In this document: positions 3,982 to 31,757 of the stretch, in pieces | Layout: each line of letters opens with the position of its first letter | Numbering within the stretch: position 1 is the stretch's first letter | IMG/VR virus record: IMGVR_UViG_3300038558_000037 | Coordinates: 1-49,973 of that record | DNA length: 49,973 nucleotides | Strand: one strand, 5' to 3' | Source of the DNA: a virus | Notes under the pieces: model-generated | Databases searched by the model: none | Told to the model about the DNA's origin: nothing | Seen by the model: only the letters and a program-made list of their open reading frames with translations | Position numbers and translations under genes: made by a program

Positions 3982-3987
3982 CGATAG

Positions 3988-5201: not shown

Positions 5202-6561
5202 TCATACAGGCCGCGAGATCGATCCCGCAGTGATTGAGGCCGTGCGGCGGACGAATGAGGACCGCTATCCTGTCGCTCAGCGTGTTGCGACGCCTGGCAT
5301 CACCAAGGCCGGCGTGCCCATGACGCCCGATCGGGCGTTGCAGGTCAGTACGGTGTGGGCGTGCGTGCGCTTTCTCAGCCAGACCGTCAGCCGGCTTGAT
5401 TGGAATCTGCGCGCACCAACAGTCGAGCAGAACGGGCGTGAGGGTTCGAAGGTCTTGCGTACTCACCCCGTGCACGCGCTATTGCGCTATCGATTGTGCG
5501 AGGAGCAGAGCAGTTTTCAATTCCGCGAGATTTTGATGCGTCATGCCCTGCTTTGGGGCAACGGCTACGCTGAAATTGAATGGAACGCGGGCGGCCAGCC
5601 AATAGCGCTTTGGCCGATTCATCCAACGCGTGTATGCGTGATGCGCGACATCGACACGGGTGAATTGTTCTATCAGATCTATAACAACGTGGCTGGGACG
5701 GTAAATCTCGACAAGTGGTCAGTGTTTCATTTGCGTGGTCTCGGTGAGGACGTCGTTGGTTTATCGGTGATGGCTTATGCCGCTCAATCCATCGGTTGGG
5801 CACAGGCAGTGCAGCTGTTCGGTGCGTCGTTCTTCCGGAGCGGTGCAAATCCAAGCGGTGTGGTCACGAGCAAGCGGCCGCTTAGTCCCGACGGTCTTGC
5901 GCTGATCCGTGAAGATTTCCTCAAGCTCTACGGCGGACCGGCCGGCAGCAACAAAACGATGTTTCTCGATAACGAGATGGACTATAAGCCTATCTCGATC
6001 GAGCAGGAGAAAGCTCAATTTATCGAGACTAATCAATATCTGTTAGACGAAGTGTGCAGGTGGTTCGGATGTCCTCCGCACAAAATCTATAATTTGTTGC
6101 GTGCGACTTTTAGTAATATAGAACATCAGTCAATTGAAGTTGTAACCGACAGCATCAGGCCGTGGGTTAAGCGGTTTCAGGATGAGGCCGATTTTAAATT
6201 ATTGGGCGAAAATCGCCGCAGGTTGTATACTCAGATTGAAGTCAACGAATTGTTGATGGCCGATACTGCGACGCGTATGCAGTTTTATCAGGGTCTGCGC
6301 AATATCGGTGCGTTAAATACCAACGAAATCCGTGATTTTGAGGGATTGAACAGTATTGGGCCGGACGGCGAGAAATATACGATGCAATCCGGCATGACCA
6401 CGCTTGATAAAATTGGCGCCAATGGACCTGTATCTGAGCCGGCACCCATGCTTGAGCCTGAGCCTGATCCAAATGCGGAATTACGTGATAATGTTTGGTT
6501 GCGATCGGAGAAATTGAATGCTGCAAATTCAAAACCGCGCGTCGGGGCGGCGGCCGCGTAA
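5191..6561 (+). CDS. Portal protein, HK97 family
   Basis: This 456-residue protein matches the HK97-type portal (Phage_portal) in size, position and sequence. Recognisable stretches are VSTVWACVRFLSQTVSRLDW near the N-terminus, HALLWGNGYAEIEW around residues 112-130, the region FGASFFRSGANPSGV near residue 210, and QYLLDEVCRWFGCPPHKI near 283. It forms the dodecameric ring at the capsid vertex through which DNA enters and to which connectors attach. The C-terminus is Pro/Glu-rich and low in complexity. The downstream coiled-coil gene begins inside its last 44 bases. Confidence 0.93.
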   Translation: MLLDHTGREIDPAVIEAVRRTNEDRYPVAQRVATPGITKAGVPMTPDRALQVSTVWACVRFLSQTVSRLDWNLRAPTVEQNGREGSKVLRTHPVHALLRYRLCEEQSSFQFREILMRHALLWGNGYAEIEWNAGGQPIALWPIHPTRVCVMRDIDTGELFYQIYNNVAGTVNLDKWSVFHLRGLGEDVVGLSVMAYAAQSIGWAQAVQLFGASFFRSGANPSGVVTSKRPLSPDGLALIREDFLKLYGGPAGSNKTMFLDNEMDYKPISIEQEKAQFIETNQYLLDEVCRWFGCPPHKIYNLLRATFSNIEHQSIEVVTDSIRPWVKRFQDEADFKLLGENRRRLYTQIEVNELLMADTATRMQFYQGLRNIGALNTNEIRDFEGLNSIGPDGEKYTMQSGMTTLDKIGANGPVSEPAPMLEPEPDPNAELRDNVWLRSEKLNAANSKPRVGAAAA

Positions 6562-7672
6562 GCAACCGGACGATGCCGAGAGAAAGCTTTGGTTGACGAT
6601 CGATAATATTTTATCGTTAGTCGACGCCTGTAATACTGCATTGGCGGCCCAAGCCGAGACCGTCGCCGAGCTCCGCGCTGCGCAGCTCGAGGCCGACAGC
6701 GCGCGGGAACAGACGGCTGCTGAGCTGACCGACCTACGCAGTGAACTTGCTAAACTGCGCACTGCCCAGCTCGAGGCATTCGAGGCGTGGGAGCGGGCTG
6801 CTATTGTTGATCTGCGCACCCAAATGATTGACGAGCTCCGCGCTGCCCAGCTCGAGGCCGACGGCGCGCGGGAACTGGCGGCTGTTGAGCTGGGGGCCCA
6901 AGCCGAGACTATCGCCGAGCTCCGCGCTGCCCAGCTCGAGGCCGACAGCGCGCGGGAACTGGCGGCTGCTGAGCTGGGGGCCCAAGCCGAGACTATCGCC
7001 GAGCTCCGCGCTGCCCAGCTCGAGGCCGACAGCGCGCGGGAACAGGCGGCTGCTGAGCTGGGGGCCCAAGCCGAGACTATCGCCGAGCTCCGCGCTGCCC
7101 AGCTCGAGGCCTCCGAGGCGCGGGACCGGGCGGCCGACATGATGCGTGGCCAGGCGGAAACTATCGCCGAGCTCCGCGCTGACATCGCTGCAGAAGTACA
7201 ACGCGTAATTGTCGTGCAAGAAGAACATCAACTGCAAATCGAAGCTCTTCAGGATCGTAGCGCAACAGCTGAAGAACAGATCGTCGCCGTCGACAAACGC
7301 GCGCGTAGCATGCTGTCTCAACTGCCCAAGAAACTAATGCTTGATCATGAGGGCAATCTCGTCGCTATCGATGGTGAAGGAGAATGTTCAATCATCGGGC
7401 CGGTGTGTGGCCGCGACGGTGTCGATGGCGTATCGATAAAGTCGGCGAGCATCATCAATGGTAAATTCACCGTCGAATTTTCCGATGGGCGCAGGGTTGA
7501 TGTCGGTGAGTGGCCTGCCGCATCACCTGCGGCAGATCCTGACGCGGCGCTTGCTGCTGTGGCTCGAGCGTTAAAGGCAGACCGTGTGTCGGAAACCAAA
7601 ATCCGGGCGCTCATGGGCGTCAGCAGACCAAAATTGAAGAGGTGGCTCAATGCCGACACCGCGTCGAAATGA
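6518..7672 (+). CDS. Coiled-coil repeat protein between portal and protease
   Basis: This 384-residue protein has three parts. Residues 1-44 are basic and start inside the portal gene after a good GGAG site. Residues 45 to about 240 hold six to seven copies of a 28-residue unit (QAETIAELRAAQLEADSARE...), exactly four heptads, predicting a long rod-like coiled coil. Residues 270-340 contain GPVCGRDGVDGVSI and FSDGRRVDVG, a small Gly-rich domain, and the C-terminus (VSETKIRALMGVSRPKLKRW) looks like a helix-turn-helix. It overlaps the protease gene by 23 bases. Location fits a scaffold, internal head protein or head fibre; scaffold is attractive because HK97-type heads otherwise rely on the capsid delta domain. 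The function is unproven. Confidence 0.65.
   Translation: MLQIQNRASGRRPRKQPDDAERKLWLTIDNILSLVDACNTALAAQAETVAELRAAQLEADSAREQTAAELTDLRSELAKLRTAQLEAFEAWERAAIVDLRTQMIDELRAAQLEADGARELAAVELGAQAETIAELRAAQLEADSARELAAAELGAQAETIAELRAAQLEADSAREQAAAELGAQAETIAELRAAQLEASEARDRAADMMRGQAETIAELRADIAAEVQRVIVVQEEHQLQIEALQDRSATAEEQIVAVDKRARSMLSQLPKKLMLDHEGNLVAIDGEGECSIIGPVCGRDGVDGVSIKSASIINGKFTVEFSDGRRVDVGEWPAASPAADPDAALAAVARALKADRVSETKIRALMGVSRPKLKRWLNADTASK
6650..7180 (+). repeat. 84-bp tandem repeats encoding four-heptad units
   Basis: Three nearly identical 84-base copies lie at 6899-6982, 6983-7066 and 7067-7150, with more diverged copies on both sides starting at 6650. The period is a multiple of both 3 and 21, so each unit adds four full heptads without changing frame or coiled-coil register. 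Near-identity at the base level implies recent expansion by recombination or slippage; copy number probably varies between relatives. Confidence 0.9.
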
Positions 7673-8561
7673 ACGACAAGACGCATTTATAACGCGCTGC
7701 ATGGGCGATGCTGAAGCGGTACGGACATTTCCGGACGCTGCGCAGCGCCGGGCGTTTTGTCAGTCGCAATGGGACCGTAAGAAACAGACGTCGGCTATCT
7801 GGACGGGACTTGGTGGGCCGGCGGCAGTCGCCTGGCAGTTGATGGAACAATCACCGATTGCTTTCTATCAGACACTTCAGGTTTGGTCACAGGAAACCAA
7901 GGATACATCGCAATATCGCTTTCGCGCTAAAGCAGGCGGTGAGACGGGCGAAATCCTCTTATATGGACCGATTGGCCAAGATTGGTTCGGTGAAGGTATC
8001 ACGAGTGCAACATTTGCCAAGGAGATGAAGAAGCTCGACAAAGCCACGTCGATAGACCTGCATATTGACAGCCCAGGTGGATCGGTGGCTGATGCGCGTG
8101 CGATATATACACAGTTGACGCAGCATCGCGCAAAGATCAATGTTCACGTGGATGGTCTGGCTGCAAGCGCCGCAAGTGTTGTTGCAATGGCCGGTGACAC
8201 GATCAAAATTGCTGAGAGTGGTTTCGTGATGATCCATGAGGCGCGCGGTGTCGCGCGCGGTACGGTCGCTGATTTTGAGAAGGCCGCACAGATCATTAAG
8301 GCGCACAATGCGGCAATCGTTGACGTTTATGCAGCGAGGACCGAGAATAGCAGGCGTAAGCTCGAGGAATGGATGTTCGCCGAGACGTGGTTTTCTGGTA
8401 CTGATGCTGTGAAGAATGGCTTCGCTGATAGTGTCATCGAAAATAAGCGTAAATCGACCGCAACTGCCTATGCGGCGGCGTTCGCGGCGTTTCCCGACCA
8501 ATTGCCGCTCAGCATGAGGACGCGTAGGATAATGCGTCGAATTGAAAGGCTCGCATCATGA
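7650..8561 (+). CDS. ClpP-like head maturation protease (S14)
   Basis: This 303-residue protein is the serine protease that cleaves the capsid N-terminal domain and other internal proteins during head maturation. The ClpP fold is shown by IDLHIDSPGGSVADA (residues 130-145), the nucleophile region GLAASAASVVAMAGD and the His-containing SGFVMIHEARG. The N-terminal segment MPTPRRNERQDAFITRCMG is a short basic-cysteine motif often attached to phage head proteases. It overlaps the coiled-coil gene upstream and shares an ATGA with the capsid gene downstream, indicating coupled translation of protease and substrate. Confidence 0.93.
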   Translation: MPTPRRNERQDAFITRCMGDAEAVRTFPDAAQRRAFCQSQWDRKKQTSAIWTGLGGPAAVAWQLMEQSPIAFYQTLQVWSQETKDTSQYRFRAKAGGETGEILLYGPIGQDWFGEGITSATFAKEMKKLDKATSIDLHIDSPGGSVADARAIYTQLTQHRAKINVHVDGLAASAASVVAMAGDTIKIAESGFVMIHEARGVARGTVADFEKAAQIIKAHNAAIVDVYAARTENSRRKLEEWMFAETWFSGTDAVKNGFADSVIENKRKSTATAYAAAFAAFPDQLPLSMRTRRIMRRIERLAS

Positions 8562-10009
8562 ATTATTGGAATCCGCTACTGTTCGTTGCCATGGATGCCC
8601 GTAAGGTGCAGACGTTGGCGGAGCTTGAGGCCGAAGTTGAAGAACTCCGTAAAGACGCGCGCGATATCGCGGCTCTCGAGAGTAAGCGGGATCTCACATC
8701 CGAGGAGCAGGAGGAGCTCGAGGAGATCCTTGCCGACATTGAAGCATTGCAGCCGAAGATCGAGCGGCAACGTCGTATCGAAAAGTTGACAGCGTCTGAG
8801 GGCCGCAAGACTACCGAGCCGAGCAGCCGCCGGGCGCGTCGCACTGCAGATACGGATTCTGATCCGGAACCCGCACAGCGTCGCCGCCGTTACGATCCTG
8901 TGCCTGCGCAAGCTCGCAATGAGCAGGATATGCGGACGCATGGCTTTCATTCGTTCGGTGAGTTCGCCATGACCGTCGGTCAGGCATACAAGCTTAAGAA
9001 TGAGACCGCCCTGGCTCATCTGACCAATGCCGCGACGACCTATGGTACGGAAAGTGTCGGCGGTGACGGCGGTTGGCTTGTGCCACCAGACTTTGCGACC
9101 AGCATCTGGCAGAAGGTGTCGGGTGACGGTTCATTGCTTGAAATGTGCGCGCCGTTTACGACGGCTCGTAACAGCCTGAGTTTCCCGAAGGATGAGACGA
9201 CACCCTGGGACAATAGCGCCGGCATCACCGTCTACTGGGAATCTGAGGGTGGAGCGGGCACCGAGGCCAAGCCCAAATTTGAGATCGGTACAGCCCGGCT
9301 AAACAAGCTCATGGCGCTCGTTAAGGTCACCGAGGAATTACTTGAGGATGCTCCGGGCCTCGACAGTTATCTCCGATTCTGGACGCCGATCAAGATGCAG
9401 GCGCGCATCAATACCGCTATTGTTCGCGGCAACGGCGTGGGCAAGCCTCACGGCATCCTCAATTGCTCGAGCCTGATCACGGTGTCCAAGGAGACAAGTC
9501 AGGATGCGGCGACGATCATCATGCCGAACATCGAGAACATGTGGAACCGGTTGTATTCGCCGCTCCGCAGCAATGCTGTCTGGCTGATTAACCAGGAAGT
9601 CGAGCCAATGCTCAACGGTATGGCTTTCGTACCGTCGGCTGTGGCGCCCGGTGCCGCGCTCAATGCGATGACAGCGTGGATGCCAGTCTATCTCCCGAGT
9701 GGTTCGGTGACGGGATCGCCGTTCGGTCAGCTCAAAGGCAGGCCGGTAATGCCGATGAATCCATGTTCGGCGCTCGGTACGATCGGAGACATCGTTCTTG
9801 TCGATCTCATGCAGTATATGGCCCTGCGGAAGGCACAGGCTACCGGAATTGCCGTGGATACCAGCATCCACCTACATTTTGACCAGGCCATCGACACCTA
9901 TCGGTTTACATATCGGGTGACCGGTCAGCCGATGTGGAATAGCACCATTAGTCCTGAGAACGGCAGCAATACGTATAGCTGGGCCGTCGCGCTCGAGACG
10001 CGTTCGTAA
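8558..10009 (+). CDS. Major capsid protein, HK97 family
   Basis: This 483-residue protein is the main shell subunit. The first 80 or so residues are a charged helical delta-like domain (LAELEAEVEELRKDARDIAA), expected to be removed by the upstream protease. A linker rich in Arg and Pro follows (residues 85-125), and the HK97 fold begins near residue 135 with recognisable landmarks GGDGGWLVPPDFATSIW and ARLNKLMALVKVTEELLEDA. The C-terminus resembles other Phage_capsid (PF05065) members (TYRFTYRVTGQPMW). The ATG at 8558 overlaps the protease stop; an internal ATG at 8591 is a possible alternative start. A terminator-like hairpin follows directly. Confidence 0.95.
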   Translation: MNYWNPLLFVAMDARKVQTLAELEAEVEELRKDARDIAALESKRDLTSEEQEELEEILADIEALQPKIERQRRIEKLTASEGRKTTEPSSRRARRTADTDSDPEPAQRRRRYDPVPAQARNEQDMRTHGFHSFGEFAMTVGQAYKLKNETALAHLTNAATTYGTESVGGDGGWLVPPDFATSIWQKVSGDGSLLEMCAPFTTARNSLSFPKDETTPWDNSAGITVYWESEGGAGTEAKPKFEIGTARLNKLMALVKVTEELLEDAPGLDSYLRFWTPIKMQARINTAIVRGNGVGKPHGILNCSSLITVSKETSQDAATIIMPNIENMWNRLYSPLRSNAVWLINQEVEPMLNGMAFVPSAVAPGAALNAMTAWMPVYLPSGSVTGSPFGQLKGRPVMPMNPCSALGTIGDIVLVDLMQYMALRKAQATGIAVDTSIHLHFDQAIDTYRFTYRVTGQPMWNSTISPENGSNTYSWAVALETRS

Positions 10010-10087: not shown

Positions 10088-10597
10088 ATGTTTAACGGAA
10101 ATGTCAAGTTCACCGAGTTCGCGCAGGTCGTTAGCGCATTCGTTCCGATCGATGTCAACGCGGCCGCCCAGACGGGCGATGTTGTCAGCCTTGAGAATTT
10201 TCATCGTTGCGCAGTCATCCTCTTCGGTGCTGCCGGTTCGTCCGGCACTGATATCACATTGACGCTGGCACAAGGCACCGATGTTGCGTTCGGCACCAAC
10301 AAAGCACTGACTTTCACGCGCATTGATAAAAAGGAAGGTGCTGCACTCACTGCCATTGGTCAATTCACGGTTGTAACACAGGCTGCGGCAGCTACCTATA
10401 CGACAACCAATAATGAGCAGTCACAGCAGATCTACATCGTTGACTTCGGCGTCGACGATCTCGATATTGCCAACGACTACGACTGTATTCGTATGAGTAT
10501 CAACGCCGGCAATGCCGCAAAGGTGATGGCCGGTCTGTATATCTTATACGGCCCGAAGTATGGCACTGATCCGTTGCCGTCGGCAATTGTGGACTGA
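10088..10597 (+). CDS. Probable capsid decoration or head-associated protein
   Basis: This 169-residue protein follows the capsid gene after a hairpin and a good AAGGA site. It is rich in Ala, Thr and Val and looks mainly beta, with the segment GSSGTDITLTLAQGTDVAFG and the C-terminal CIRMSINAGNAAKVMAGLYILYGPKYG. Small beta proteins directly after the capsid gene in siphoviruses are often decoration proteins that sit on the shell, and its own translation signal after a terminator fits a high-copy virion protein. I do not recognise a named family. It could also be a substrate for the sugar-transfer genes that begin 600 bases downstream. Confidence 0.6.
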   Translation: MFNGNVKFTEFAQVVSAFVPIDVNAAAQTGDVVSLENFHRCAVILFGAAGSSGTDITLTLAQGTDVAFGTNKALTFTRIDKKEGAALTAIGQFTVVTQAAAATYTTTNNEQSQQIYIVDFGVDDLDIANDYDCIRMSINAGNAAKVMAGLYILYGPKYGTDPLPSAIVD

Positions 10598-10664: not shown

Positions 10665-11189
10665 ATGCGTTATAGGGTCAGATTTATTCGCGACGCTCAA
10701 GTCGAGCGTGCGCATTCCGACAAAAAACGCGGTGGTTTCTGGCTCGAAATTATTCCAGTCGGAACGGTCAAAGAAGTCAACGAGGCGTCACTTCGGTTCT
10801 GGTATGCGCGCGGTGCCGTTGAGATCATCGAGAAGCTACCGGAGCGGAATCCGTTTGAACTGCCGATTGTGGATGATCCTGCACCTGTGGTCACACGGAT
10901 CACTAAGGCAGAGATTCGTCGGCAGGCTGTCGAGGCTAGCAATGCGCTATCCTTGCTGACCGGACCGATTGATACGGCGGCACTTCTAAAGCATCTGGAA
11001 TTTCTGACCATCGAAGACGTGCTGGAGCTATTGCCGGAAATCAATTCCGATAGTGTTGTCGTTCTTAGGGCGGCGCTGGCAGATCTGCAGGCAACCGGTC
11101 AAATGCACGTGCATCCGCAAGAGCTAGCGGAGGCGCTCGCCGATGTCGAGATGCAGACCAGGCCACCGAGCATGCGGCGGAAGAAATGA
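10665..11189 (+). CDS. Hypothetical protein at the edge of the glycan island
   Basis: This 174-residue protein starts after a strong TTGGAGAAG site. The first 60 residues (MRYRVRFIRDAQVERAHS, GGFWLEIIPVGTVKEV) look like a small beta domain; the rest is helical and acidic, ending in a basic tail (PPSMRRKK). I do not recognise a family. Its stop overlaps the start of the DUF115-like gene, tying it to the sugar-transfer operon, while its promoter-side neighbour is a head protein. It could be a head completion protein or an accessory of the modification genes. Confidence 0.5.
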   Translation: MRYRVRFIRDAQVERAHSDKKRGGFWLEIIPVGTVKEVNEASLRFWYARGAVEIIEKLPERNPFELPIVDDPAPVVTRITKAEIRRQAVEASNALSLLTGPIDTAALLKHLEFLTIEDVLELLPEINSDSVVVLRAALADLQATGQMHVHPQELAEALADVEMQTRPPSMRRKK

Positions 11190-11821
11190 GCTGGCCGCCA
11201 GACTGGCCGCCCGGAGAGACTATTGCGGTTGTGGCAGGGGGTGCGTCGGCGCAGCATATTGCGCCACAACTCATCGGCCGATGCCGAATCATTGCCATCA
11301 ATCTATCTTTCCGGCTCGTGCCGTCCGCTGACGTGCTCTATGCGGCGGACAGCGGTTTTTGGCGCACCTACCGAGATGCTCACGCTTTCCGGGGCATCAA
11401 GCTTGCGCCGGCAGATCAGCGCGTGCCTGGGGTGATGGAGATCATCATACCGCGGGACAAGCTCGGGCGGCGCGTCGATCGAATGCTGCGTGAGCCAATC
11501 GGTACTGTAGGTTGCGGCGGTGGCAACGGAGCATTTCAGGGCGTCAATTTGATGGCACAATTGCGGCCCGTGCGGATTTTGCTGGCCGGCGTTGATTATT
11601 GCGGCGAACATTGGCACGGGCCGCACCCGCGATCGCTGCACAATCCGACAGCGCAGCAGTTCGCCAGATGGCGGCAAATGCTTGACGCGGAGGCGGAGAC
11701 CTTGCGCAGCTGGGGGATTGAGGTTATCAACTTGTCAACTGTTTCTACGCTGCGAGCCTTTCCGCATGCTACAATCGATAGCATATTTGCTAGTCCGAGA
11801 CCTTCCGGCATATCGCCGTGA
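11186..11821 (+). CDS. DUF115/MptE-like phage protein
   Basis: This 211-residue protein resembles the DUF115 (MptE-like) proteins found in many phages and in bacterial surface-glycan loci. Landmarks are the nucleotide-binding-like start TIAVVAGGASAQHIAP, INLSFRLVPSADVLYAADSGFW, GGGNGAFQGVNL, ILLAGVDYCGEHWHGPHP with LHNP soon after, and the late GIEVINLSTVSTLRAFPH. In bacteria, some DUF115 relatives transfer sialic or pseudaminic acid type sugars; for phage members the reaction is not known to me. It overlaps both neighbours by a few or tens of bases and opens the run of group-transfer genes. Confidence 0.65.
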   Translation: MSWPPDWPPGETIAVVAGGASAQHIAPQLIGRCRIIAINLSFRLVPSADVLYAADSGFWRTYRDAHAFRGIKLAPADQRVPGVMEIIIPRDKLGRRVDRMLREPIGTVGCGGGNGAFQGVNLMAQLRPVRILLAGVDYCGEHWHGPHPRSLHNPTAQQFARWRQMLDAEAETLRSWGIEVINLSTVSTLRAFPHATIDSIFASPRPSGISP

Positions 11822-12584
11822 TGCGTTTGCATCTGGTCTGCAATCTCTTGGCTATGCGATCATCACCAAACCCCCACAATTTCCGCGACCGTCCGATGTC
11901 CTCATAATCTGGAATCGCTATGGGCCGAATCACATCATTGCTCGGCGTTTTGAAGACATGAAAGCGCCGGTCATTGTCGCTGAAAATGGCTATGTCGATA
12001 TGGTCGATACCAAGAAAGCGTTTGCGTTGGCGCTTGGTCACCATAACGGCGCGGGCCGGTGGCCGATCGGCGATCAATGGCGAGCGCACACACTCGTGCA
12101 GACCATTCGACCATGGCGTGGTGACGGGTCTCGTGACGATATCCTGATCCTGCCTCAACGAGGCGTGGGGCCGCCAGGAGTGGCTATGCCGCGCGGCTGG
12201 GTGGCTGATGTGCAGCAGCGGCTTAAAGCCGTCTGTGGGCGGCGCCGTGTACGTCTGCGGCCTCATCCTGGTACACAAAAGCACGTGCGGCCGCTATTTG
12301 AGGATCTCGATGGTGTTGGCGCGTGCGTGGTTTGGGGCAGCGGTGCAGGTGTCAAGGCGTTGATGTATGGCGTGCCGGTCGTGCATGAATTTCCAAGGTG
12401 GATTGGCGCGCTTGGCGGCAGTTTCGGTTTATCGACGCTGACGGCGCCGCGACTTGGTGATCGGGCGGCAATGGCTGAAGCCGTGAGTTGGGCACAGTGG
12501 TCGCTTGAAGAGGTTATAGCGGGCGTGCCGTTCCAGTATTTGCTCGCGTTGCATGCGGCTAAAATGGAGAAGCGGCGGGCATGA
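11766..12584 (+). CDS. GT-B-like glycosyltransferase
   Basis: This 272-residue protein has the C-terminal half of a GT-B transferase. Evidence is RLRPHPGTQKHVRP near residue 165, then VVWGSGAGVKALMYGVPVVHEF, the typical nucleotide-sugar loop where a Gly/Ser pair precedes a conserved GVPVV. It ends with AQWSLEEVIAGVPF, a signature shared in diverged form with the genes at 12581, 13371 and 47659. The ATG at 11766 overlaps the DUF115 gene by 56 bases; a TTG at 11787 is an alternative. It resembles capsular-polysaccharide type transferases; donor and acceptor are unknown. Confidence 0.65.
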   Translation: MLQSIAYLLVRDLPAYRRDAFASGLQSLGYAIITKPPQFPRPSDVLIIWNRYGPNHIIARRFEDMKAPVIVAENGYVDMVDTKKAFALALGHHNGAGRWPIGDQWRAHTLVQTIRPWRGDGSRDDILILPQRGVGPPGVAMPRGWVADVQQRLKAVCGRRRVRLRPHPGTQKHVRPLFEDLDGVGACVVWGSGAGVKALMYGVPVVHEFPRWIGALGGSFGLSTLTAPRLGDRAAMAEAVSWAQWSLEEVIAGVPFQYLLALHAAKMEKRRA

Positions 12585-13399
12585 AAGTTGCAATCTATGC
12601 TGTCGATGGCAACAAACGCGCCAGGCATCTGGCGCGATCGATGGCGATGGGATTGCGCCGCTGCGATGTGTCACATATTGAGTGCAGCCGATTCAAGGGC
12701 GTGGAGGCTGACGTAGCTGTGGCTTATGGTTGGGTGCATGAGCCGATATTTTCGGCATATCGTGCAGCCGGTAAACATTATGTGTTCTGGGATCTCGGTT
12801 ACTGGGGCCGGCGGCCGCAAGGTGCGTCAGAAGAGGGATATCATCGACTTGCTGTCGACGACTGGGATACTGCGCTACACATGCGCCGGGAATATCCGTC
12901 GGACCGCTTTCAGCGACTCGGTCTCATGATTGGTGACGGGCCTAGAGAACCGAGAGACGTGCTTGTTGCGGGCATGTCGCCGAAGGCTGCAACGACGCAC
13001 GGTTACGACTACGGCGAATGGGAACGGCAGGCATGCACTGTGCTGGCGCGGATTTGTCCGGATATGTCCGTGGTGTTGCGCCCGAAGCCAAACAAACGTG
13101 CGGTGCCGCAAATACCAATCGAGCAAGCGTTGCAGACGGCGCGGCTACTTGTCACACATCACAGCAATACGGCGATCGATGCGCTGTTGCTCGGTGTGCC
13201 GGTGTATGCCGTCAAGGGCGTGGGTCGACTGGCGTCATCTAATGTGCTTAACGCCGATGAGATCAATCATCCGTATGAGCTCGCCCATGCCGCGCGTTTA
13301 CAGCTGCTCGCCGATGTAGCATACGCGCAATGGACACCAGCGGAGATGCGAAGCGGGGAGGCTTGGCAGCATGCATTTAGCATTCTACGCGACAGATAA
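12581..13399 (+). CDS. Glycosyltransferase-like protein, paralogue 1
   Basis: This 272-residue protein starts MKVAIYAVDGNKRARHLARS, as a Rossmann-type domain would, and has VVLRPKP near residue 165 and the nucleotide-sugar loop LVTHHSNTAIDALLLGVPVYAV near residue 188. It ends DVAYAQWTPAEMRSGEAW, the signature shared with the proteins at 13371 and 47659. All three have a KxYxxWDxGY-like or DKGY segment near residue 70 (here FWDLGYWGRR). Four-base ATGA overlap with the preceding gene and a 29-base overlap with the next indicate one translation unit. The GT-B assignment rests on motifs only. Confidence 0.65.
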   Translation: MKVAIYAVDGNKRARHLARSMAMGLRRCDVSHIECSRFKGVEADVAVAYGWVHEPIFSAYRAAGKHYVFWDLGYWGRRPQGASEEGYHRLAVDDWDTALHMRREYPSDRFQRLGLMIGDGPREPRDVLVAGMSPKAATTHGYDYGEWERQACTVLARICPDMSVVLRPKPNKRAVPQIPIEQALQTARLLVTHHSNTAIDALLLGVPVYAVKGVGRLASSNVLNADEINHPYELAHAARLQLLADVAYAQWTPAEMRSGEAWQHAFSILRDR

Positions 13400-14210
13400 A
13401 CCGTCCGATACGGCATTGACCGCAGCACTGATGTCGGCGGGTCATTGCGTCGATGTGATTTTGGATCATGCGCAAACGCCGGAGGCGGACGCATATTGCT
13501 TCGTTGGGGTCAAGCGTGCCGACCTGGCGGGCCGACTTGCTGATGCCGGCAAGCGGTGGCTCTATTGGGATAAGGGCTACAATCGGCGGTGGCCGCACTG
13601 GTGGCGCGTGACGTGCTGTGCACAGCAACCGACGCGGTATTTGATGGATATAAACCGGCCATCCGATCGCGCAACTGTGCAGGGATGGCTGCGCACAATA
13701 AAGCCGTGGCGGGTTTGCGGCGACCACATTGTGTTTGCGGGATCGTCCGCGAAATATCACGGTTTCGTTGGCCATGATAATGTTGATCCAACGAAGTATG
13801 CGCAACAGGTCATCAATGAAATTCGAGCCAGGACACAACGGCGAATTGTCTATAGGCCGAAGCCCAGTTGGAAGGCGGCAGTGCCGGTGCAGGGCGCCGA
13901 ATATTCTGCACGTCACACGACGGGCGATATACACCAGGCATTGGAGTGGGCGCACGTGCTCGTCACGCATGGCTCGAGTACGTGTTTTGATGCTTTGGTT
14001 GCAGGTGTACCGTCAATCGTGCTCGGCGATGGTGTATTAAGGCCGATATCATCAACATCATTGGATGATATCGAACAACCAATACTTGCGTCCGATATAG
14101 ATCGTCGGCAATTACTTTGCAATCTTGCGTATTGCCAGTGGAGTCTTGCAGAAATCAAATCCGGCGCAGCTAACGATTATCTTAATTATTTGGTGCATAA
14201 TGCAATTTAA
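13371..14210 (+). CDS. Glycosyltransferase-like protein, paralogue 2
   Basis: This 279-residue protein is a clear relative of its upstream neighbour and of 47659-48483. Shared landmarks are WLYWDKGYNRRW near residue 63, RIVYRPKPSW near 160, LVTHGSSTCFDALVAGVPSI near 200 followed by VLGDGVLRPISS, and NLAYCQWSLAEIKSG at the end. The DKGY motif and the VLGDG loop are even closer to the 47659 protein than to its neighbour. It overlaps the following methyltransferase gene by 11 bases. It probably transfers a sugar in the same pathway; having adjacent paralogues suggests different sugars or linkages. Confidence 0.65.
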   Translation: MHLAFYATDKPSDTALTAALMSAGHCVDVILDHAQTPEADAYCFVGVKRADLAGRLADAGKRWLYWDKGYNRRWPHWWRVTCCAQQPTRYLMDINRPSDRATVQGWLRTIKPWRVCGDHIVFAGSSAKYHGFVGHDNVDPTKYAQQVINEIRARTQRRIVYRPKPSWKAAVPVQGAEYSARHTTGDIHQALEWAHVLVTHGSSTCFDALVAGVPSIVLGDGVLRPISSTSLDDIEQPILASDIDRRQLLCNLAYCQWSLAEIKSGAANDYLNYLVHNAI

Positions 14211-14769
14211 ATACGGCAAAGCTTATCTTCGCGACCATGTCAGACATCAGAAATGGTGGTCAGGCAATATCGGCCCGGAAAATGCCGACAACATCGCCGA
14301 GCTCGTCGCTGCGACGAGCGCGACCAGGATAGCAGATTACGGGTCGGGCAAGGGCTATCAATATCTGACTGACCGCGTTCATGAGCGGTGGGGTGGGATA
14401 TTGCCCCACTGTTACGACGTCGGCGTCTGGAACCTGAAGCGTCCATTGATGCCAGGCAGTTTTGACGGTCTGATTTGCACCGATGTAATGGAGCATATTG
14501 CCACGGCAGATATCAAAGAAATTCTTGCCGATGCAATAGCTTTGTTGCGGGATGATGGACCGGTGTTCGCTTATTTTAATATATTTTGCAATCTTGCAGC
14601 TAAATCTTTTCCAGACGGACGCAATGTACATTTGACGGTGCAGCCGCCTGATTGGTGGGAGGCGAAACACTTTAAGAAATTGCGGCGGCGAGAAAACCTG
14701 AGACTGTGGGTAGATTATGAGTATGTTCGTAGTGACGACCTGCAATGCGGCAGTGAGAAAAGATTATGA
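14200..14769 (+). CDS. SAM methyltransferase
   Basis: This 189-residue protein has a class I SAM fold: RIADYGSGKGYQYL as the glycine-rich loop and FDGLICTDVMEHI as the motif typical of the Methyltransf_11/23 group, followed by ALLRDDGPVFAYFN. The ATG at 14200 sits in the last bases of the preceding gene; an open frame upstream lies within that gene. Its last residues (from VDYEYVRSDDLQ) are encoded by a duplicated copy of the next gene's start region, so the native C-terminus has been altered by a 49-base tandem duplication. Being between sugar-transfer genes, it likely methylates a sugar or its carrier. Confidence 0.75.
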   Translation: MQFKYGKAYLRDHVRHQKWWSGNIGPENADNIAELVAATSATRIADYGSGKGYQYLTDRVHERWGGILPHCYDVGVWNLKRPLMPGSFDGLICTDVMEHIATADIKEILADAIALLRDDGPVFAYFNIFCNLAAKSFPDGRNVHLTVQPPDWWEAKHFKKLRRRENLRLWVDYEYVRSDDLQCGSEKRL

Positions 14770-14795
14770 GTATGTTCGTAGTGACGACTTGCAAT
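14712..14795 (+). repeat. 49-base-offset tandem duplication at a gene start
   Basis: A 35-base segment at 14712-14746 recurs at 14761-14795 with one mismatch. The second copy holds the start codon of the glycosyltransferase gene at 14766; the first carries a decoy start at 14717 that opens a short dead-end frame. As the offset is not a multiple of three, the duplication shifts the end of the upstream methyltransferase into a new tail. Confidence 0.9.
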
Positions 14796-15539
14796 CGTGA
14801 ATTGTGGGATCAGTGCGGCAGACGCATGGCTGAAACGCATCGACAATACTGGCCGGCGGACGTGCCGCTCTATGTCTATGCGGAGAATTTTGACGTCGAC
14901 GTGCCGTGCATCCAGCGTGCGTTGCCGGGATGGTTCATGCGATGGAAGCAAAGTCTTGCGATGCATCCTGACGCTCATGGCCTCGATCTCAAGCATAACC
15001 GTCGCGGTCGACCATACGACTTTCGCAGGGATTGCGTGCGGTTCGCGCATAAGGTGGCGGCATTGACTGATACTGGATTGTCAGCCAGGGGCGGCCTTAT
15101 GGTGTGGGCTGACGCCGACGTTCTCACGCATGCGGCCGTTGACGAGGTGTGGCTGCGCGGCAAATTGCGCGGCGGCTACATGGCGTGGCTTGACCGTGAA
15201 CGGATTTATCCCGAATGTGGGTTTGTGCTTTTTGACTGCAATCATCCACGGCACCGTGATTTTATGGAGCTCTACCGGTGTCATTATGAGACCCTGGAAG
15301 TACTCAGCGAACGCGAGACGCACGACAGCTATGTTCTGCAGCAGCTCGTCAATCAATGCGTTGCCAATGGATGGTTTACGGCACCTGCGAGCTTGTCCGG
15401 CGGAGCTCGTCGCAGTCACCATCCATTGCCAGCTTCGCCGCTTGGTGCCCGGCTGGACCATGCTAAGGGTCCGCGTAAGGTGCAGGGCCGGACGCCGCGG
15501 CACGAAGTCAGAGGACGAACAGAGGAGCACTGGAAATGA
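14766..15539 (+). CDS. GT-A-like glycosyltransferase
   Basis: This 257-residue protein begins MSMFVVTTCNRELWDQCGRR, like a GT-A fold that binds a nucleotide sugar, and has WADADVLTHAAVDEVW near residue 115, where DAD is the likely metal-binding DxD motif. Later landmarks are PECGFVLFDCNHPRH, THDSYVLQQLV and the tail HPLPASPLGARLDHAKGPRK, which I associate with a phage-borne transferase group. It overlaps the previous gene by four bases and shares an ATGA with the following FkbM gene. It appears intact; its start lies in the second copy of the local duplication. Confidence 0.7.
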   Translation: MSMFVVTTCNRELWDQCGRRMAETHRQYWPADVPLYVYAENFDVDVPCIQRALPGWFMRWKQSLAMHPDAHGLDLKHNRRGRPYDFRRDCVRFAHKVAALTDTGLSARGGLMVWADADVLTHAAVDEVWLRGKLRGGYMAWLDRERIYPECGFVLFDCNHPRHRDFMELYRCHYETLEVLSERETHDSYVLQQLVNQCVANGWFTAPASLSGGARRSHHPLPASPLGARLDHAKGPRKVQGRTPRHEVRGRTEEHWK

Positions 15540-16174
15540 AGCAGGTTGAAAGCTGGTGGTTGCCGGACGATGACGAGCATTTTGAGTTTCACCTGAAGCA
15601 GGGGCCGTATCAGGGGCGTAAGATCGAGCTCGCATTAGCTCTGGTGCCGGATAACCGTCGATGCTTGGCGCTCGATATTGGCGCACACGTCGGATTTTGG
15701 ACTGAGCCACTCGCCGGTATATTTGAGCGGGTCATCGCTTGGGAACCCATGCCTGAGCTCGCAATTTGTTGGCAACGGAATTGCGAGGATCTTAGGAATG
15801 TCGAGTGTCGTCAATGCGCGGTGGGTTCCGATAGCGGCGAGCTCGGTATGATCAGAACCGCGGGCAATTCCGGAAATTGCCATATCGCTGTCGGCTCGGC
15901 GACAGTCGTTGTACGTGCTGAGACTATCGACAGTCTTGCGCTCGAGCATGTCGATTTCATGAAATTTGATGTCGAGGGATGGGAACTCGAGGCGGTCCGC
16001 GGTGCGGAGGAGACAATCAAACAGTGCAAGCCGCTGATCGTGGTCGAACAAAAACCCGGTAACGCCGAGCGATACGGCATGGATCAGCACGGAGCCGTCA
16101 ACTTGCTCAAGTCGTGGGGTGCAACGACGCATTGGATCAAAGCAGGTGACCATTGTATGGGGTGGTCGTCGTGA
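15536..16174 (+). CDS. FkbM-family methyltransferase
   Basis: This 212-residue enzyme has the SAM loop ALDIGAHVGFWTEPLA, the acidic strand VIAWEPMPEL, and the FkbM C-terminal signature VDFMKFDVEGWELEAVRGAE followed by LIVVEQKPG. It is a relative of the gene at 3352-3981 but not a recent copy. FkbM enzymes usually methylate hydroxyl groups on sugars or on natural products. The overlap with transferase genes on both sides makes a methylated sugar the most likely product. The C-terminal HCMGWSS overlaps the next gene. Confidence 0.85.
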   Translation: MKQVESWWLPDDDEHFEFHLKQGPYQGRKIELALALVPDNRRCLALDIGAHVGFWTEPLAGIFERVIAWEPMPELAICWQRNCEDLRNVECRQCAVGSDSGELGMIRTAGNSGNCHIAVGSATVVVRAETIDSLALEHVDFMKFDVEGWELEAVRGAEETIKQCKPLIVVEQKPGNAERYGMDQHGAVNLLKSWGATTHWIKAGDHCMGWSS

Positions 16175-16887
16175 AACTCTCGATCTGGATAGGTTTTGAT
16201 TCGTGCGAAACCATCAGCTATGCGGTGGCGCGCCATAGTGCGTGCAGATTGCTTACGCAGCCGATTCCGGTCCGTGGACTTGTACTTAGTAACCTGCAAG
16301 CGTCGGGCGTCTACACACGTCCGATATGGAAGGATGAGCGTGATCAACTCTGGGATGATCGATCGGCTGCGCCAATGTCGACCGAGTTTTCATTCAGTCG
16401 ATTTCTCGTGCCTTATCTCGCTGGTGAGGGCCTGGCGTTATTCGTTGATTCTGACGTGTTGTTTAGGATCAATCCGCGCGAAATCATCGCACTGCATCAG
16501 CCAGGTAAAGCCGTAAGCGTCGTCAAGCACGAGCATCGGCCGACGTCGGATAGTAAGATGCGTGGCACGCTGCAGACCACATATCCGCGCAAGAATTGGT
16601 CATCGGTGGTGATATTCAACTGCGATCATCCATCCATTCGTATGTTGACGCCCGACGTGGTCAATACAGCTAAAGGTCTGTACTTGCATCAATTCCAGTG
16701 GTTGCGTGATGAGGAAATCGGCGAGCTGCCGGCGCGATGTAATTATCTGGTCGGCAGCACCGAATTGCCACCAGGCGAGAAACCCGCGATTGTGCATTGG
16801 ACCGAGGGCTCGCCCCACATGCCGGGTTATGATACTGTCGAATATGCAGATGAGTTTTGGCGAGAGGTGGTGCAGTGGGCACGCTGA
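16171..16887 (+). CDS. GT8-like glycosyltransferase
   Basis: This 238-residue protein begins KLSIWIGFDSCETISYAVAR and has ALFVDSDVLFRINP near residue 95, where DSD is the DxD metal site of GT-A enzymes; NWSSVVIFNCDHP and PAIVHWTEGSPHMPGY match later parts of GT8-like proteins. I chose the GTG at 16171 that overlaps the FkbM stop as GTGA; an upstream TTG at 16153 is open but adds only a Val-rich stub. It closes the island; the next gene is a head-tail connector that starts inside its last 13 bases, so the island is transcribed with virion genes. Confidence 0.7.
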   Translation: MKLSIWIGFDSCETISYAVARHSACRLLTQPIPVRGLVLSNLQASGVYTRPIWKDERDQLWDDRSAAPMSTEFSFSRFLVPYLAGEGLALFVDSDVLFRINPREIIALHQPGKAVSVVKHEHRPTSDSKMRGTLQTTYPRKNWSSVVIFNCDHPSIRMLTPDVVNTAKGLYLHQFQWLRDEEIGELPARCNYLVGSTELPPGEKPAIVHWTEGSPHMPGYDTVEYADEFWREVVQWAR

Positions 16888-17474
16888 CACTGGTGCAAGG
16901 GCCTATGGATGCTGTCGTGTCCCTGGCAACCGCCAAAGCGCGGCTCAGGGTGGATACCGGGGCCGACGACGATGTCATTAGCGCGATCATCGCTGCCGCT
17001 ACGCAGCGATTTGACGGCCGCGACGGCATCCTAGGGCGCGCGCTCCTGCCGCAGTCCTGGCGCCTCGATTTGCCCGCGTTCCCGGAGTCCATAGAGTTGC
17101 CCCTGCCGCCGTTGATCTTGGTGGAGAGCATCACCTATCTTGACACCGACTTTGTCGAGCAGACTGTTTCACCAACTATTTATCGGGTAATCAGTGGCGG
17201 CTTTGGTCGTAGTCGCATCCGGCTCGATGTTGATCAGACTTGGCCGACGTCGTCGGCTGGTGAGCCCGATACCGTGCGTGTTACGTTCCAGGCCGGCTAT
17301 CAGGATCTCCAGTCACCTGCGAATAATCCTGTGCCGGAACCGATCGTGCAAGCAATTCTGATGTTGGCGCAAAGCATGTATGACCGGCCTGGCCAAGAAA
17401 GCGTGCCCGACGTGGTCAGGGATTTGATATCGCCGTATCGCGTGGGCGTGTTCGGAGGTATCCATGGCACGTGA
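16875..17474 (+). CDS. Head-tail connector (gp6-like)
   Basis: This 199-residue protein matches the phage gp6-like connector family: VSLATAKARLRVDTGADDDVISAIIAAATQ near the N-terminus is the typical paired-helix start, SWRLDLPAFPESIELPLPPL the central beta part, and VRVTFQAGYQD with PEPIVQAILMLAQSMYDRP the C-terminal part. It docks under the portal. The GTG at 16875 is preceded by AGAGGTGG and is better placed than an upstream TTG at 16857. It overlaps the next gene by 11 bases. Confidence 0.88.
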   Translation: MGTLTLVQGPMDAVVSLATAKARLRVDTGADDDVISAIIAAATQRFDGRDGILGRALLPQSWRLDLPAFPESIELPLPPLILVESITYLDTDFVEQTVSPTIYRVISGGFGRSRIRLDVDQTWPTSSAGEPDTVRVTFQAGYQDLQSPANNPVPEPIVQAILMLAQSMYDRPGQESVPDVVRDLISPYRVGVFGGIHGT

Positions 17475-18659: not shown

Positions 18660-19010
18660 GTCGTATCGTGTCATAGCGTGTCGTGTGGTGCAGTGCAGTG
18701 ACGTGCTGTGACGTGGCGTGACGTGGCGTGTGGTGTGGTGGCGATAAATCTCATAAGCTCAATACCGGTGTCGTGTCGTGGTGTGCTGTGCAGTGCAGTG
18801 ACGTGCTGTGGCGTGACGTGGCGTGTGGTGTGGTGGCGATAAATCTCATAAGCTCAATACCGGTGTCGTGTCGTGGTGTGCTGTGGAGTGGAGTGACGTG
18901 CTGTGACGTGCCGTGGCGTGTGGTGTGGTGGCGATAAATCTCATAAGCTCAATACCGGTGTCGTGTCGTGGTGTGCTGTGGAGTGGAGTGACGTGGCGTG
19001 CGGTGCGGTG
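18660..19010 (+). repeat. NNGTG pentanucleotide array with 95-bp higher-order repeat
   Basis: About 70 consecutive pentamers, mostly NNGTG with variable first two bases, fill the gap between the DUF3168-like gene and the minus-strand cassette. Three identical 30-base inserts starting at 18741, 18836 and 18931 (each opening GCGATAAATC) recur at an exact 95-base spacing, which is 19 pentamers, so even the inserts keep the five-base phase. The period is not a multiple of three and there is no conserved frame, so it is not coding. A shorter array of the complementary unit CACNN lies at 20214-20268 on the far side of the cassette. Confidence 0.95.
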
Positions 19011-19418
19011 TCAACCTTTCGCCAGTTTGATAGCCCACTGGACTGCGTTTATGTGGGCAACGGAGCTGTTCAATTGCGCCTTTTCTTCCCGGCTTATTGA
19101 GGCATCATTCAAGAGCATGCTGGCTACGTGGTCTTCGGTACGGTCCGCTACTCTCCCGATCTTTGTTATTGCTGCGTCGACGATTACGATTCGACGCGAC
19201 AGCCGTTTGATGCCTTCGTTGCGGACAGTGCCGAATGCGTAGCCGTGACTTCTCTCCACCTCGCGGCGCGCGCGATACAGCAGATTCCGATCGCCGAGCA
19301 TGGCGTTGTTGATTTGATCGTACGGTAACACCTCATCCGGCTGTAGGCGTCGGAGTGCGGAGGCTATTGCCTCCACAGCCGCGACCTTCTCCGGGTTAGC
19401 GCTTCTTCGCCTGCTCAT
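19011..19418 (-). CDS. Hypothetical basic protein of the inverted cassette
   Basis: This 135-residue protein starts at ATG 19418, inside the end of the upstream minus-strand gene; an extended frame to 19517 lies within that gene. It is basic and helical: VEAIASALRRLQPDEVLPYD, DRNLLYRARREVERSHGYAF and TVRNEGIKRLS look like a compact winged-helix or helix-turn-helix DNA-binding region. I do not recognise a named family. The stop codon abuts the pentamer array. It runs against the structural operon, as accessory (moron) genes do, and could regulate the inverted-repeat promoter at 20015-20057. Confidence 0.6.
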   Translation of the reverse strand: MSRRRSANPEKVAAVEAIASALRRLQPDEVLPYDQINNAMLGDRNLLYRARREVERSHGYAFGTVRNEGIKRLSRRIVIVDAAITKIGRVADRTEDHVASMLLNDASISREEKAQLNSSVAHINAVQWAIKLAKG

Positions 19419-20004
19419 GCTGCACCGCCTTCCAGTCCAGTGAGGTGAGCGCGAACCGGCCATTATCGCCGCCATTGCAGGGCCGATATTGTCCGATGCC
19501 GACGAACATTCCGGCAATTTTGATGAATTCCTTCAACACATCCTCGAGGATGATCGGATCTAGAATGATGATATCAAAGGTGCATTCCCAGCCGGACGGG
19601 ATTTGAGGGAAGCGTCGCATGACGCGCTTTCCACTGCCGCGGATACCATCCGCGTTGGCGTAGACATCGATCGGGGTCGTGCCTGCCGGGGTGATTGGTT
19701 TCCCGTCACGCTTCAAAAGCAGTGGGCCTTCAACAGTGATGCCGGATTGAAATTTAGCCGTCCAAGTGGCTTTTCCCTGACCGGGGATCTGTCGCTTGCT
19801 ATATTTGGCGGCGGCTACCAAACATTGATGCATTCCAGCGCGGGGAATGATTACGTTACCATCCAGGACATGCAGTCGACTGAGATAAGTTCGCCGATCA
19901 TAGTCTTGCGGCAATTCACCTTTGTGCTTCGGTGTTTCATGGTAACGCGATTGCGTAAGGGCTGCGATACCCTTAATACTTACTGTTGCCGTGGTGATTT
20001 TCAT
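19396..20004 (-). CDS. Hypothetical protein of the inverted cassette
   Basis: This 202-residue protein begins at ATG 20004 (MKITTATVSIKGIAALTQSR); the frame opens further upstream to 20046 but that part is through operator-like repeats. The sequence has many short beta strands, a conserved-looking SRYHETPKHKGELPQDYDRR, KRVMRRFPQIPSGWECTFDI, and a glycine-rich end MFVGIGQYRPCNGGDNGRFA. The Gly-rich end faintly recalls the loop of RAMP-fold proteins, but this is too weak for a call. It overlaps the basic protein gene by 23 bases, so the two are made together. Confidence 0.6.
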   Translation of the reverse strand: MKITTATVSIKGIAALTQSRYHETPKHKGELPQDYDRRTYLSRLHVLDGNVIIPRAGMHQCLVAAAKYSKRQIPGQGKATWTAKFQSGITVEGPLLLKRDGKPITPAGTTPIDVYANADGIRGSGKRVMRRFPQIPSGWECTFDIIILDPIILEDVLKEFIKIAGMFVGIGQYRPCNGGDNGRFALTSLDWKAVQHEQAKKR

Positions 20005-20014
20005 GATGAGGCTT

Positions 20015-20057
20015 TCGGATGTGGCTTGACATCCGATGTCCGGCAAGTATATTGCCG
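20015..20057 (+). promoter_or_regulatory. Promoter overlapped by two inverted-repeat operators
   Basis: TTGACA at 20026-20031 and TATATT at 20048-20053 are spaced 16 bases apart, a good sigma-70 promoter reading right. The -35 lies within the perfect inverted repeat TCGGATGT-6-ACATCCGA (20015-20036), and the -10 within CGGCAA-5-TTGCCG (20041-20057). Both arms are palindromic enough to be dimeric repressor sites. The opposite strand has TATACT in the second repeat and may hold a weaker promoter for the cassette genes. Confidence 0.6.
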
Positions 20058-20059
20058 CA

Positions 20060-20122
20060 TCATCGGTTGTTGAGGCCGTTTGATTTTTCCAGCCCGCGGG
20101 AACGCCATTCCCGCGGGTTTTT
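20060..20122 (+). ncRNA. Candidate short RNA from promoter to terminator
   Basis: If the promoter at 20026-20053 is used, transcription would begin near 20060 and end at the hairpin terminator at 20093-20122, giving an RNA of about 60 bases with no credible reading frame. It would lie just upstream of the minus-strand cassette start. The alternative is that the terminator simply insulates the cassette from the tail operon. Confidence 0.3.
20093..20122 (+). terminator. Strong intrinsic terminator
   Basis: Ten-base arms CCCGCGGGAA and TTCCCGCGGG flank the loop CGCCA and are followed by five T. It reads right, ahead of the tail-tube promoter, and would stop read-through from the head operon. 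Confidence 0.85.
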
Positions 20123-20200
20123 CGTGTTTATGCTACTAATGTTCGATTGTCAAGCGCAAGCGGTGCTTCATTTTTGTGGTTTCTTTATACCTTTAACGCA

Positions 20201-20209
20201 TGTTATAAT
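20201..20209 (+). promoter_or_regulatory. Extended -10 promoter for tail genes
   Basis: TGTTATAAT is a perfect extended -10 element lying in a small inverted repeat CGCAT-6-ATGCG. The -35 region (TTCTTT) is poor, as is usual with extended -10 promoters. It lies between the terminator and the tail tube gene and could restart transcription of the tail operon. Confidence 0.5.
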
Positions 20210-20213
20210 GCGT

Positions 20214-20268
20214 CACTGCACGTCACAACACGGCACATCACGACATGACACGCCACAACATTGCATGT
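20214..20268 (+). repeat. CACNN pentamer array, complement of the NNGTG array
   Basis: Eleven consecutive pentamers of the form CACNN, with three CATNN variants, run immediately after the extended -10 element. On the other strand they read NNGTG, the unit of the larger array at 18660-19010. The two arrays therefore flank the minus-strand cassette as inverted copies. Confidence 0.85.
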
Positions 20269-20305
20269 TATTGTCTGTGCGAAGCTTCAATAGGAGATGC
20301 GGTAA

Positions 20306-31468: not shown

Positions 31469-31483
31469 TTCCATCCTCGCCTA

Positions 31484-31717
31484 CGACAGCGATAGCGACC
31501 GCGACCGTGACAGCGACCGCGACCGTGACAGCGACCACGACAGCGACCGCGACCGCGACCGCGACCGTGACCACGACCGCGACCGTGACAGCGACCGCGA
31601 CCGTGACCGCGACAGCGACCGCGACCGCGACCGCGACAGCGACCGCGACAGCGACCGCGACCGTGACCGCGACAGCGACCGCGACCGCGACAGCGACCGC
31701 GACAGCGACCGCGACCA
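31484..31717. repeat. Array of 39 degenerate hexamers (YGACMR)
   Basis: Thirty-nine consecutive hexamers run without interruption, nearly all CGACCG, CGACAG, TGACCG, TGACAG or CGACCA, varying only at positions one, five and six. The first is at 31484 and the last ends at 31717. It lies between the minus-strand genes at 31758-32021 and 31268-31468. Because six is a multiple of three, long repetitive frames exist on both strands, but they code only alternating residues. Confidence 0.95.
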
Positions 31718-31757
31718 TGATATATAGGTTGCGTGAAAAATCATGACCGTGGTCGTC

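Follow-up and report, generated by a model that had tools for sequence, protein, structure and literature searches.

Why would a phage place a block of glycan-type genes between the genes for its capsid and its head-tail connector? The question is raised by the IMG/VR virus record IMGVR_UViG_3300038558_000037, which we analyzed from position 1 to position 49,973 (hereafter, the window; 49,973 bases). The late genes of the window are ordered terminase (with an apparent intein), portal, protease, capsid, a small conserved protein, connector, tail, and lysis, and the replication genes follow the lysis genes, mostly on the opposite strand. One unassigned gene (10665-11189) and eight glycan-type genes (11186-16887; hereafter, the island) separate the capsid and decoration genes from the connector gene. 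We found that, in related phages, this junction is a recurrent and specific site for glycan genes, which have been gained and lost repeatedly, and that a gene for a GT42-like transferase is the core and first gene of the island. We propose that the island probably encodes soluble enzymes, expressed late, that glycosylate a virion protein. The genes of the junction and its borders are as follows.

8558-10009, + strand: HK97-type major capsid protein at the left border of the hotspot; matches proteins annotated as such, with 42-65% identity in relatives
10088-10597, + strand: small conserved protein after the capsid gene, provisionally named decoration-type; PHROG 28483, a family of unknown function
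10665-11189, + strand: conserved protein beside the GT42 gene, of no glycan family; homologues only in relatives L006 and L023
11186-11821, + strand: GT42/CstII-like transferase, proposed priming enzyme; PHROG 4603, CstII profile match in the PDB, conserved residues
11592-12584 (probable start 11766), + strand: GT-B-like transferase 1, RPHP motif; paralogue of the modelled GT-B protein
12581-13399, + strand: GT-B-like transferase 2; 35% identity to GT-B 3
13371-14210, + strand: GT-B-like transferase 3; AlphaFold model with a predicted local distance difference test (pLDDT) score of 91.2
14125-14769 (probable start 14200), + strand: class I methyltransferase; PHROG 24759 methyltransferase, E 5e-22
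14766-15539, + strand: predicted GT-A transferase, D-A-D motif; conserved D116-A-D118, model pLDDT 85
15536-16174, + strand: FkbM-family methyltransferase; Pfam PF05050 E 5e-19, NCBIfam fkbM_fam E 8e-25
16153-16887 (probable start 16162-16171), + strand: GT-A/GT8-like transferase, DxD motif; PHROG 28018, E 9e-60
16857-17474, + strand: head-tail connector, right border of the hotspot; PHROG 442 E 3e-30, Pfam PF05135

The eight glycan-type genes lie on a single strand in an uninterrupted operon. Their overlaps measure 4-86 bp with the likely starts applied, the open reading frames (ORFs) having been called mechanically and the exact starts being uncertain for the frames at 11592/11766, 14125/14200, 16153/16171, and 16857/16875. 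An initial annotation, made from the sequence alone, had described a glycan island with overlapping genes between the capsid and connector genes; all of its ORFs are present where it placed them, the overlaps run throughout the island, and the island itself is confirmed, with a secure border at the connector. Its starting point has to be moved, however: the annotation began the interval at 10665, but the gene at 10665-11189 matches no glycosyltransferase or methyltransferase family in Pfam, PHROG, and NCBIfam scans, and the glycan genes begin at 11186. On the capsid side, homologues of the 10088-10597 gene are found immediately 3′ of the capsid gene in nearly all relatives.

To describe the junction across phages, we gathered 83 viral loci on capsid similarity alone. 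Scans took the best 80 loci per query, and the counts therefore describe near relatives and not all phages; the family models were seeded from the window, which biases them toward the enzyme types of the window but not toward their location. A GT42 gene lies between capsid and connector in 24 of the 51 capsid-selected loci with a recognizable connector. The gap between the two genes ranges from 497 bp (empty) to 9.3 kb. The junctions, 133 kb in total, hold 49 genes of island families, against 8 in the other 585 kb of the connector-bearing loci, and those 8 genes sit just downstream of the connector. Because related loci are not independent, we give the counts and do not rely on a binomial P value. 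Further junction ORFs encode methyl-, sulfo-, and pyruvyltransferases, hexapeptide acyl- (acetyl-type) transferases, and glycosyltransferases of families 1, 2, 9, and 29, and MptE-like members also occur at the hotspot. The control set, drawn randomly from other ORFs of the same loci, yielded such families as HNH endonucleases and tail proteins; among the 25 of 37 families listed, the sole sugar-type one is a DegT aminotransferase.

The occupancy of the junction changes readily. On a capsid tree (FastTree), island presence switches at least 9 times on well-supported branches, and among the junctions of prophages in cellular genomes, 41 of 64 span less than 600 bp. Of the three nearest prophages, two carry island genes, and both belong to Hyphomicrobiales (Rhizobiaceae and Bauldia metagenome-assembled genomes), which suggests Hyphomicrobiales as the host order of the window phage. 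The association also holds when the capsid is disregarded: among loci selected by GT42 similarity, a head, tail-connector, or terminase gene lies within 1 kb in 62 of 73. Within the freely readable papers, our literature search found no description of a glycan hotspot between capsid and connector.

The contents of occupied junctions nest around the GT42 gene. It is present in 36 of 38 occupied junctions, always as the first island family, and in 8 of the 38 it is the only gene of at least 120 residues besides the decoration-type gene; in two occupied junctions, a class I methyltransferase is the sole window-derived family. Where a connector-bounded junction contains a GT-B gene, a GT42 gene is present as well (9/9). 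The nesting is what would be expected if a priming enzyme acted first and extension and capping were optional, an order that we infer.

What kind of enzyme would the priming protein be? The product of 11186-11821 appears to be a relative of GT42/CstII-type sialyltransferases. It matches PHROG 4603, “alpha-2;3-sialyltransferase” (E 1e-27), and a profile built from eleven phage homologues finds CstII in the PDB with E 3.8e-5 as opposed to E 0.9 for the MptE/DUF115 structure. The profile similarity covers residues 16-162 (E 3.8e-5 to 1.9e-4 across seven CstII sequences). The CstII alignments, as shown, stop short of His188, which together with tyrosines makes up the catalytic residues of CstII, and a His142 of its own is conserved in the phage family; N39, D55, D137, and H142 are kept in 97 to 109 of 111 homologues. 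The initial annotation had called this protein DUF115-like. We replaced the direct DUF115 assignment by a GT42-like one given the two E values above, and the protein has no Pfam match, PF01973 included, at E values up to 1; its homologue in relative L005 matches PF01973 at 2.6e-5, below the cut-off. The earlier name was still a fair reading, because the central domain of Maf proteins (PF01973) resembles the CstII fold (PMC11339370). Maf enzymes O-glycosylate flagellin with cytidine monophosphate (CMP)-activated donors, including Kdo, by transfer from CMP-sugars to surface Ser/Thr residues of a self-assembling protein (PMC11339370).

The three GT-B-like transferases of the initial annotation are borne out by the 13371-14210 model, which matches GT-B enzymes, and by the alignment of GT-B 1 and GT-B 2 with GT-B 3 as paralogues. 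In a Foldseek search, the best PDB neighbors of the GT-B 3 model are KpsC, WbbB, and KrkA (E 2e-7 and weaker, probability 1.00, template modelling [TM] score ~0.5), and the GT-B proteins give a weak profile alignment with a KpsC-type protein. GT-B 1 is 34-37% identical to proteins of Caulobacter jumbo phages, and GT-B 2 has a weak Pfam match, below the cut-off, to the putative glycosyltransferase family DUF6716 (E 0.0017). Retaining Kdo transferases are defined by a QXXXD nucleophile (PMC10148158, PMC12887879) and bind CMP at a (K/R)XHP motif (PMC12887879). The arginine of the latter motif is invariant in the GT-B homologues (61/61), and GT-B 1 carries RPHP. The QXXXD motif, as read off the alignment, is absent from all four GT-B proteins of the window, and a crude QXXXD pattern is present in 14 of the 61 homologues. 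Because of this absence, we rejected membership of the GT-B proteins among the Kdo transferases.

The remaining island genes agree with their initial descriptions. A DxD GT-A-like transferase had been named; at 14766-15539, the D-A-D motif is conserved and the model resembles GT-A enzymes in Foldseek, including LARGE1, glycogenin, and alpha-1,3-GalT (E 7e-7 and weaker); a PDB profile search with this protein returned only meaningless antibody matches. The predicted GT8-like transferase at 16153-16887 conserves D99, D101, and H215, and some of its relatives are annotated as glycosyltransferases. Its family, PHROG 28018, is labeled “unknown function,” and its profile matches to WbbM (0.005) and to a GT8 enzyme (0.12) are weak. 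The two methyltransferases also stand. The one at 14200-14769 belongs to class I, and the one at 15536-16174 exceeds both curated FkbM cut-offs (PF05050, 69.6 bits against 22.7; TIGR01444, 87.9 bits against 37.7). Taken together, families, folds, and conserved motifs support well the synthesis and methylation of a glycan that the annotation had proposed. The further members that it had listed outside the island were likewise recovered.

3352-3981, + strand: second FkbM-family methyltransferase; PHROG 8156, E 4e-29
3988-4578, + strand: class I methyltransferase; weak methyltransferase matches
46968-47543, + strand: class I methyltransferase, paralogue of 3988-4578; Pfam Methyltransf_23 E 1.6e-5, below the cut-off
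47659-48483, + strand: fourth GT-B-like transferase; 35% identity to GT-B 3, with a C-terminal part 37% identical to GT-B 2

Beside the outlying GT-B gene lies a gene for a Radical SAM/SPASM protein (48908-49888, - strand), with weak similarity to prokaryotic viperins and many maturases, which could be an additional modification enzyme.

Relatives help to connect the outlying genes with the island. In L023, whose capsid protein is 50% identical to that of the window, the full island is kept in the same gene order (44-51% identity) and encloses homologues of the outlying methyltransferases of the window and a second FkbM gene. We therefore tie the genes at 3352-4578 and 46968-48483 to the island pathway. 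One of the enclosed genes (L023:12913-13500), homologous to both 3988-4578 and 46968-47543, is on the opposite strand. Relative L004 keeps the island order without the GT8-like gene; just upstream of its transferases, a BNR-repeat (sialidase-like) protein (L004:1-1218; weak Pfam BNR_2 match, E 6e-4) is a possible glycan-binding or glycan-cutting partner. In the otherwise unrelated phage L005, the tail-tube gene is immediately preceded by the block GT42-GTB-GTB-GTB-GT8-GTA-FkbM.

As for named phages, the order in D3 is capsid, GT42 (orf7), connector, and the Caulobacter jumbo phages CcrColossus and C1 have GT42 (gp162 in C1), GT-B, GT-B, GT8-like, and methyltransferase genes between their tail and lysis genes. 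Phage phiCbK gave no match in the tblastn searches with island proteins. In phage P1 (L022), pmgO is a GT42 homologue and pmgP a weaker match (E 1e-13) beside a protein phosphatase gene. A tblastn search with the connector against annotated phages gave no match.

How might these enzymes work together? We propose that the GT42/CstII-like enzyme would put the first sugar on an assembly protein (capsid, decoration, or tail tube) that is made in large amounts and encoded on the same transcript, a step that would resemble the transfer of CMP-activated nonulosonic acids onto flagellin by Maf. The GT-B, GT-A, and GT8-like enzymes would then lengthen the glycan and the methyltransferases would cap its hydroxyl groups, with sugar nucleotides supplied by the host. 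CMP-linked donors are hinted at by the GT42 likeness and by the HP-type motif of GT-B 1, and CMP-Kdo or CMP-nonulosonate would be our guesses; CMP-Kdo occurs in nearly all Gram-negative hosts. The benefit may be to shield virions from binding to debris, from degradation, or from predators.

We favor virion-protein glycosylation because the products appear soluble, the genes belong to a late structural operon, and the record has no integrase, hydroxymethylase, or sugar-nucleotide genes. The island proteins lack hydrophobic stretches of the kind seen in the positive controls, and the exception among the glycan genes is one beta-strand region in the outlying 47659-48483 product. The record has no match to PF00589 (integrase), PF00303 (thymidylate-synthase-type hydroxymethylase), or PF00483, PF01370, and PF02348 (nucleotidyltransferase, epimerase, and CMP-sugar synthetase). 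Together with the repeated gain and loss of such genes at the junction, these observations suggest that phages with the island decorate their own particles with sugars. Several points weigh on the other side. Because the record may be a fragment, the absences are weak evidence, and late expression would also suit a late change of the host surface. The structural placement has an exception in the Pelagibacter phage Mosig, where genes of nucleotide metabolism surround a related set. In phage PAJU2, the GT42 homologue (ORF010) carries the annotation “structural protein,” for which the PMC paper on Ab31 offers no explanation. Finally, Ser/Thr content shows no clear difference between phages with and without the island and singles out no acceptor: the fractions are 0.173 against 0.156 for the decoration protein and 0.150 against 0.160 for the capsid protein, small differences in opposite directions that are confounded by relatedness, which makes this search for the acceptor uninformative.

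The strongest competitor is a late alteration of a host surface glycan (lipopolysaccharide, capsule, or flagellin glycan) that keeps progeny from sticking to debris or blocks superinfection. GT42 enzymes, CstII for example, use lipooligosaccharide as an acceptor, the GT-B model comes closest in fold to Kdo transferases that serve in capsule and O-antigen synthesis, and the Mosig set is located outside the structural genes. The window also encodes an outer-membrane beta-barrel protein (29893-30639, - strand; signal-peptide-like start; Pfam OMP_b-brl, E 7e-8), for which receptor masking or superinfection exclusion is a possible role. Serotype-conversion clusters, however, include a membrane-bound transferase, a flippase, or a polymerase, none of which is found among the island proteins, and the record lacks an integrase. 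The capsid-connector association across many phages and the frequent junctions with GT42 only fit an assembly substrate better, and we regard host-surface modification as unlikely, though it is the main rival. The initial annotation had preferred virion proteins over the host as the target; hotspot placement, the lack of membrane segments, and the lack of lysogenic-conversion and DNA-hypermodification genes favor that choice, and its interpretation is thus partly upheld, firmly for the building and methylation of a glycan and as the favored reading for the virion target.

Two further explanations are less likely. The annotations of PAJU2 ORF010 and of P1 PmgO (“putative morphogenetic function”) would fit a GT42-like protein that resembles a transferase in fold but serves in the virion or in morphogenesis, the other enzymes being unrelated cargo at a permissive site. 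Yet the active-site-like residues N39, D55, D137, and H142 are retained across the family, the co-resident genes are overwhelmingly sugar enzymes whereas the control ORFs are not, and many relatives have no GT42 gene, which argues against a general morphogenesis factor and makes this explanation improbable. Glycosylation of modified bases in phage DNA is a common role of phage glycosyltransferases, and the window encodes a cytosine-5 methyltransferase. We nevertheless consider this role very improbable for the island, as the record has no hydroxymethylase of the thymidylate synthase family and the GT-A, GT8-like, and methyltransferase genes sit with late structural genes and not with replication genes.

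How does the proposed virion-protein glycosylation compare with known systems? Virion glycosylation is firmly described for a few mycobacteriophages. Freeman et al. 2023, as cited in PMC12363180, reportedly found it in Che8, Corndog, and Myrna. According to PMC12363180, mycobacteriophages glycosylate capsid and tail tube. As in the island, phage-encoded soluble glycosyltransferases are proposed for capsid or tail-tube proteins; unlike the mycobacteriophages, the island has several transferases together with methyltransferases, is led by a GT42-like gene, and belongs to phages of Gram-negative bacteria. The comparison with actinobacterial phages drawn in the initial annotation is an analogy only: tblastn searches with five island proteins matched no actinobacterial phage. 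Maf flagellin glycosyltransferases (PF01973/MAF_flag10) share the CstII-like fold with the island GT42 protein, which, unlike Maf, resembles GT42 more than MptE, is without the additional domains of Maf at a length of 211 amino acids, and has no flagellin partner. CstI and CstII resemble the window protein in profile, but the latter is shorter and the record is without a CMP-sialate synthetase; the acceptor of CstII is lipooligosaccharide. The retaining Kdo transferases of families GT99, GT107, and GT140 (WbbB, KpsC, and KrkA) have the modified GT-B fold and the CMP-site arginine in common with the GT-B proteins, which differ in lacking QXXXD, with a TM score of only ~0.5 for GT-B 3.

Among phages, D3 has its GT42 gene at the same junction, but as a single transferase, and in the Caulobacter phages the related set follows the tail genes and consists mostly of genes annotated as hypothetical. 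Temperate-phage serotype conversion relies on an integrase, which was not found in the record, and on a membrane flippase, polymerase, or bactoprenol transferase, which were not found among the island proteins. The base hydroxymethylase (PF00303) of phages with DNA-hypermodifying glycosyltransferases was not found in the record either. Phage virion glycosylation is known as such; new here would be its proposed form, a swappable cassette of several enzymes that is led by GT42 and has a fixed position.

More tentatively, we conjecture that phages of Gram-negative bacteria may share a modular virion-glycan system at a fixed address. A Maf-like GT42 enzyme would prime capsid or tail with a host ulosonic acid (from CMP-Kdo or CMP-nonulosonate), a new GT-B family with a Kdo-transferase-like fold but without the nucleophile motif would extend the glycan, and swappable methyl-, sulfo-, pyruvyl-, and acetyl-transferring enzymes would vary its outer face, giving an exchangeable, serotype-like coat. 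Should virion glycosylation hold for the window phage, it would be common among tailed phages of Gram-negative bacteria, recognizable by its core enzyme and predictable in its genomic location; functions could be assigned to many late genes now called “hypothetical,” P1 pmgO and D3 orf7 among them; and the outer chemistry of the phage particle would be swappable as a module. Virion glycosylation can be tested in cultured phages, such as the Caulobacter phages CcrColossus or C1, and D3.

The whole window had no match in an Rfam scan, and six island proteins had none in a scan of a defense-system library. Elsewhere in the window, the large terminase frame (399-3341; 980 amino acids) contains an intein-like insertion at approximately residues 113-476, with a weak LAGLIDADG match (343-406). 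Between portal and protease, a coiled-coil protein without a match in the family scan (6518-7672) includes 6.5 copies of an 84-bp tandem repeat. A frame with a long Ser-Arg dipeptide-like repeat (31481-31801, - strand; 12/18-bp tandem repeat) is probably non-coding or of low complexity. Between the DUF3168-type and tail-tube genes, ~1.65 kb without a convincing gene (18660-20305) contain a 95-bp tandem repeat (3.4 copies); because these two genes are adjacent in L004, whose tail-tube protein is 96% identical, the segment is a recent insertion or an assembly fault.

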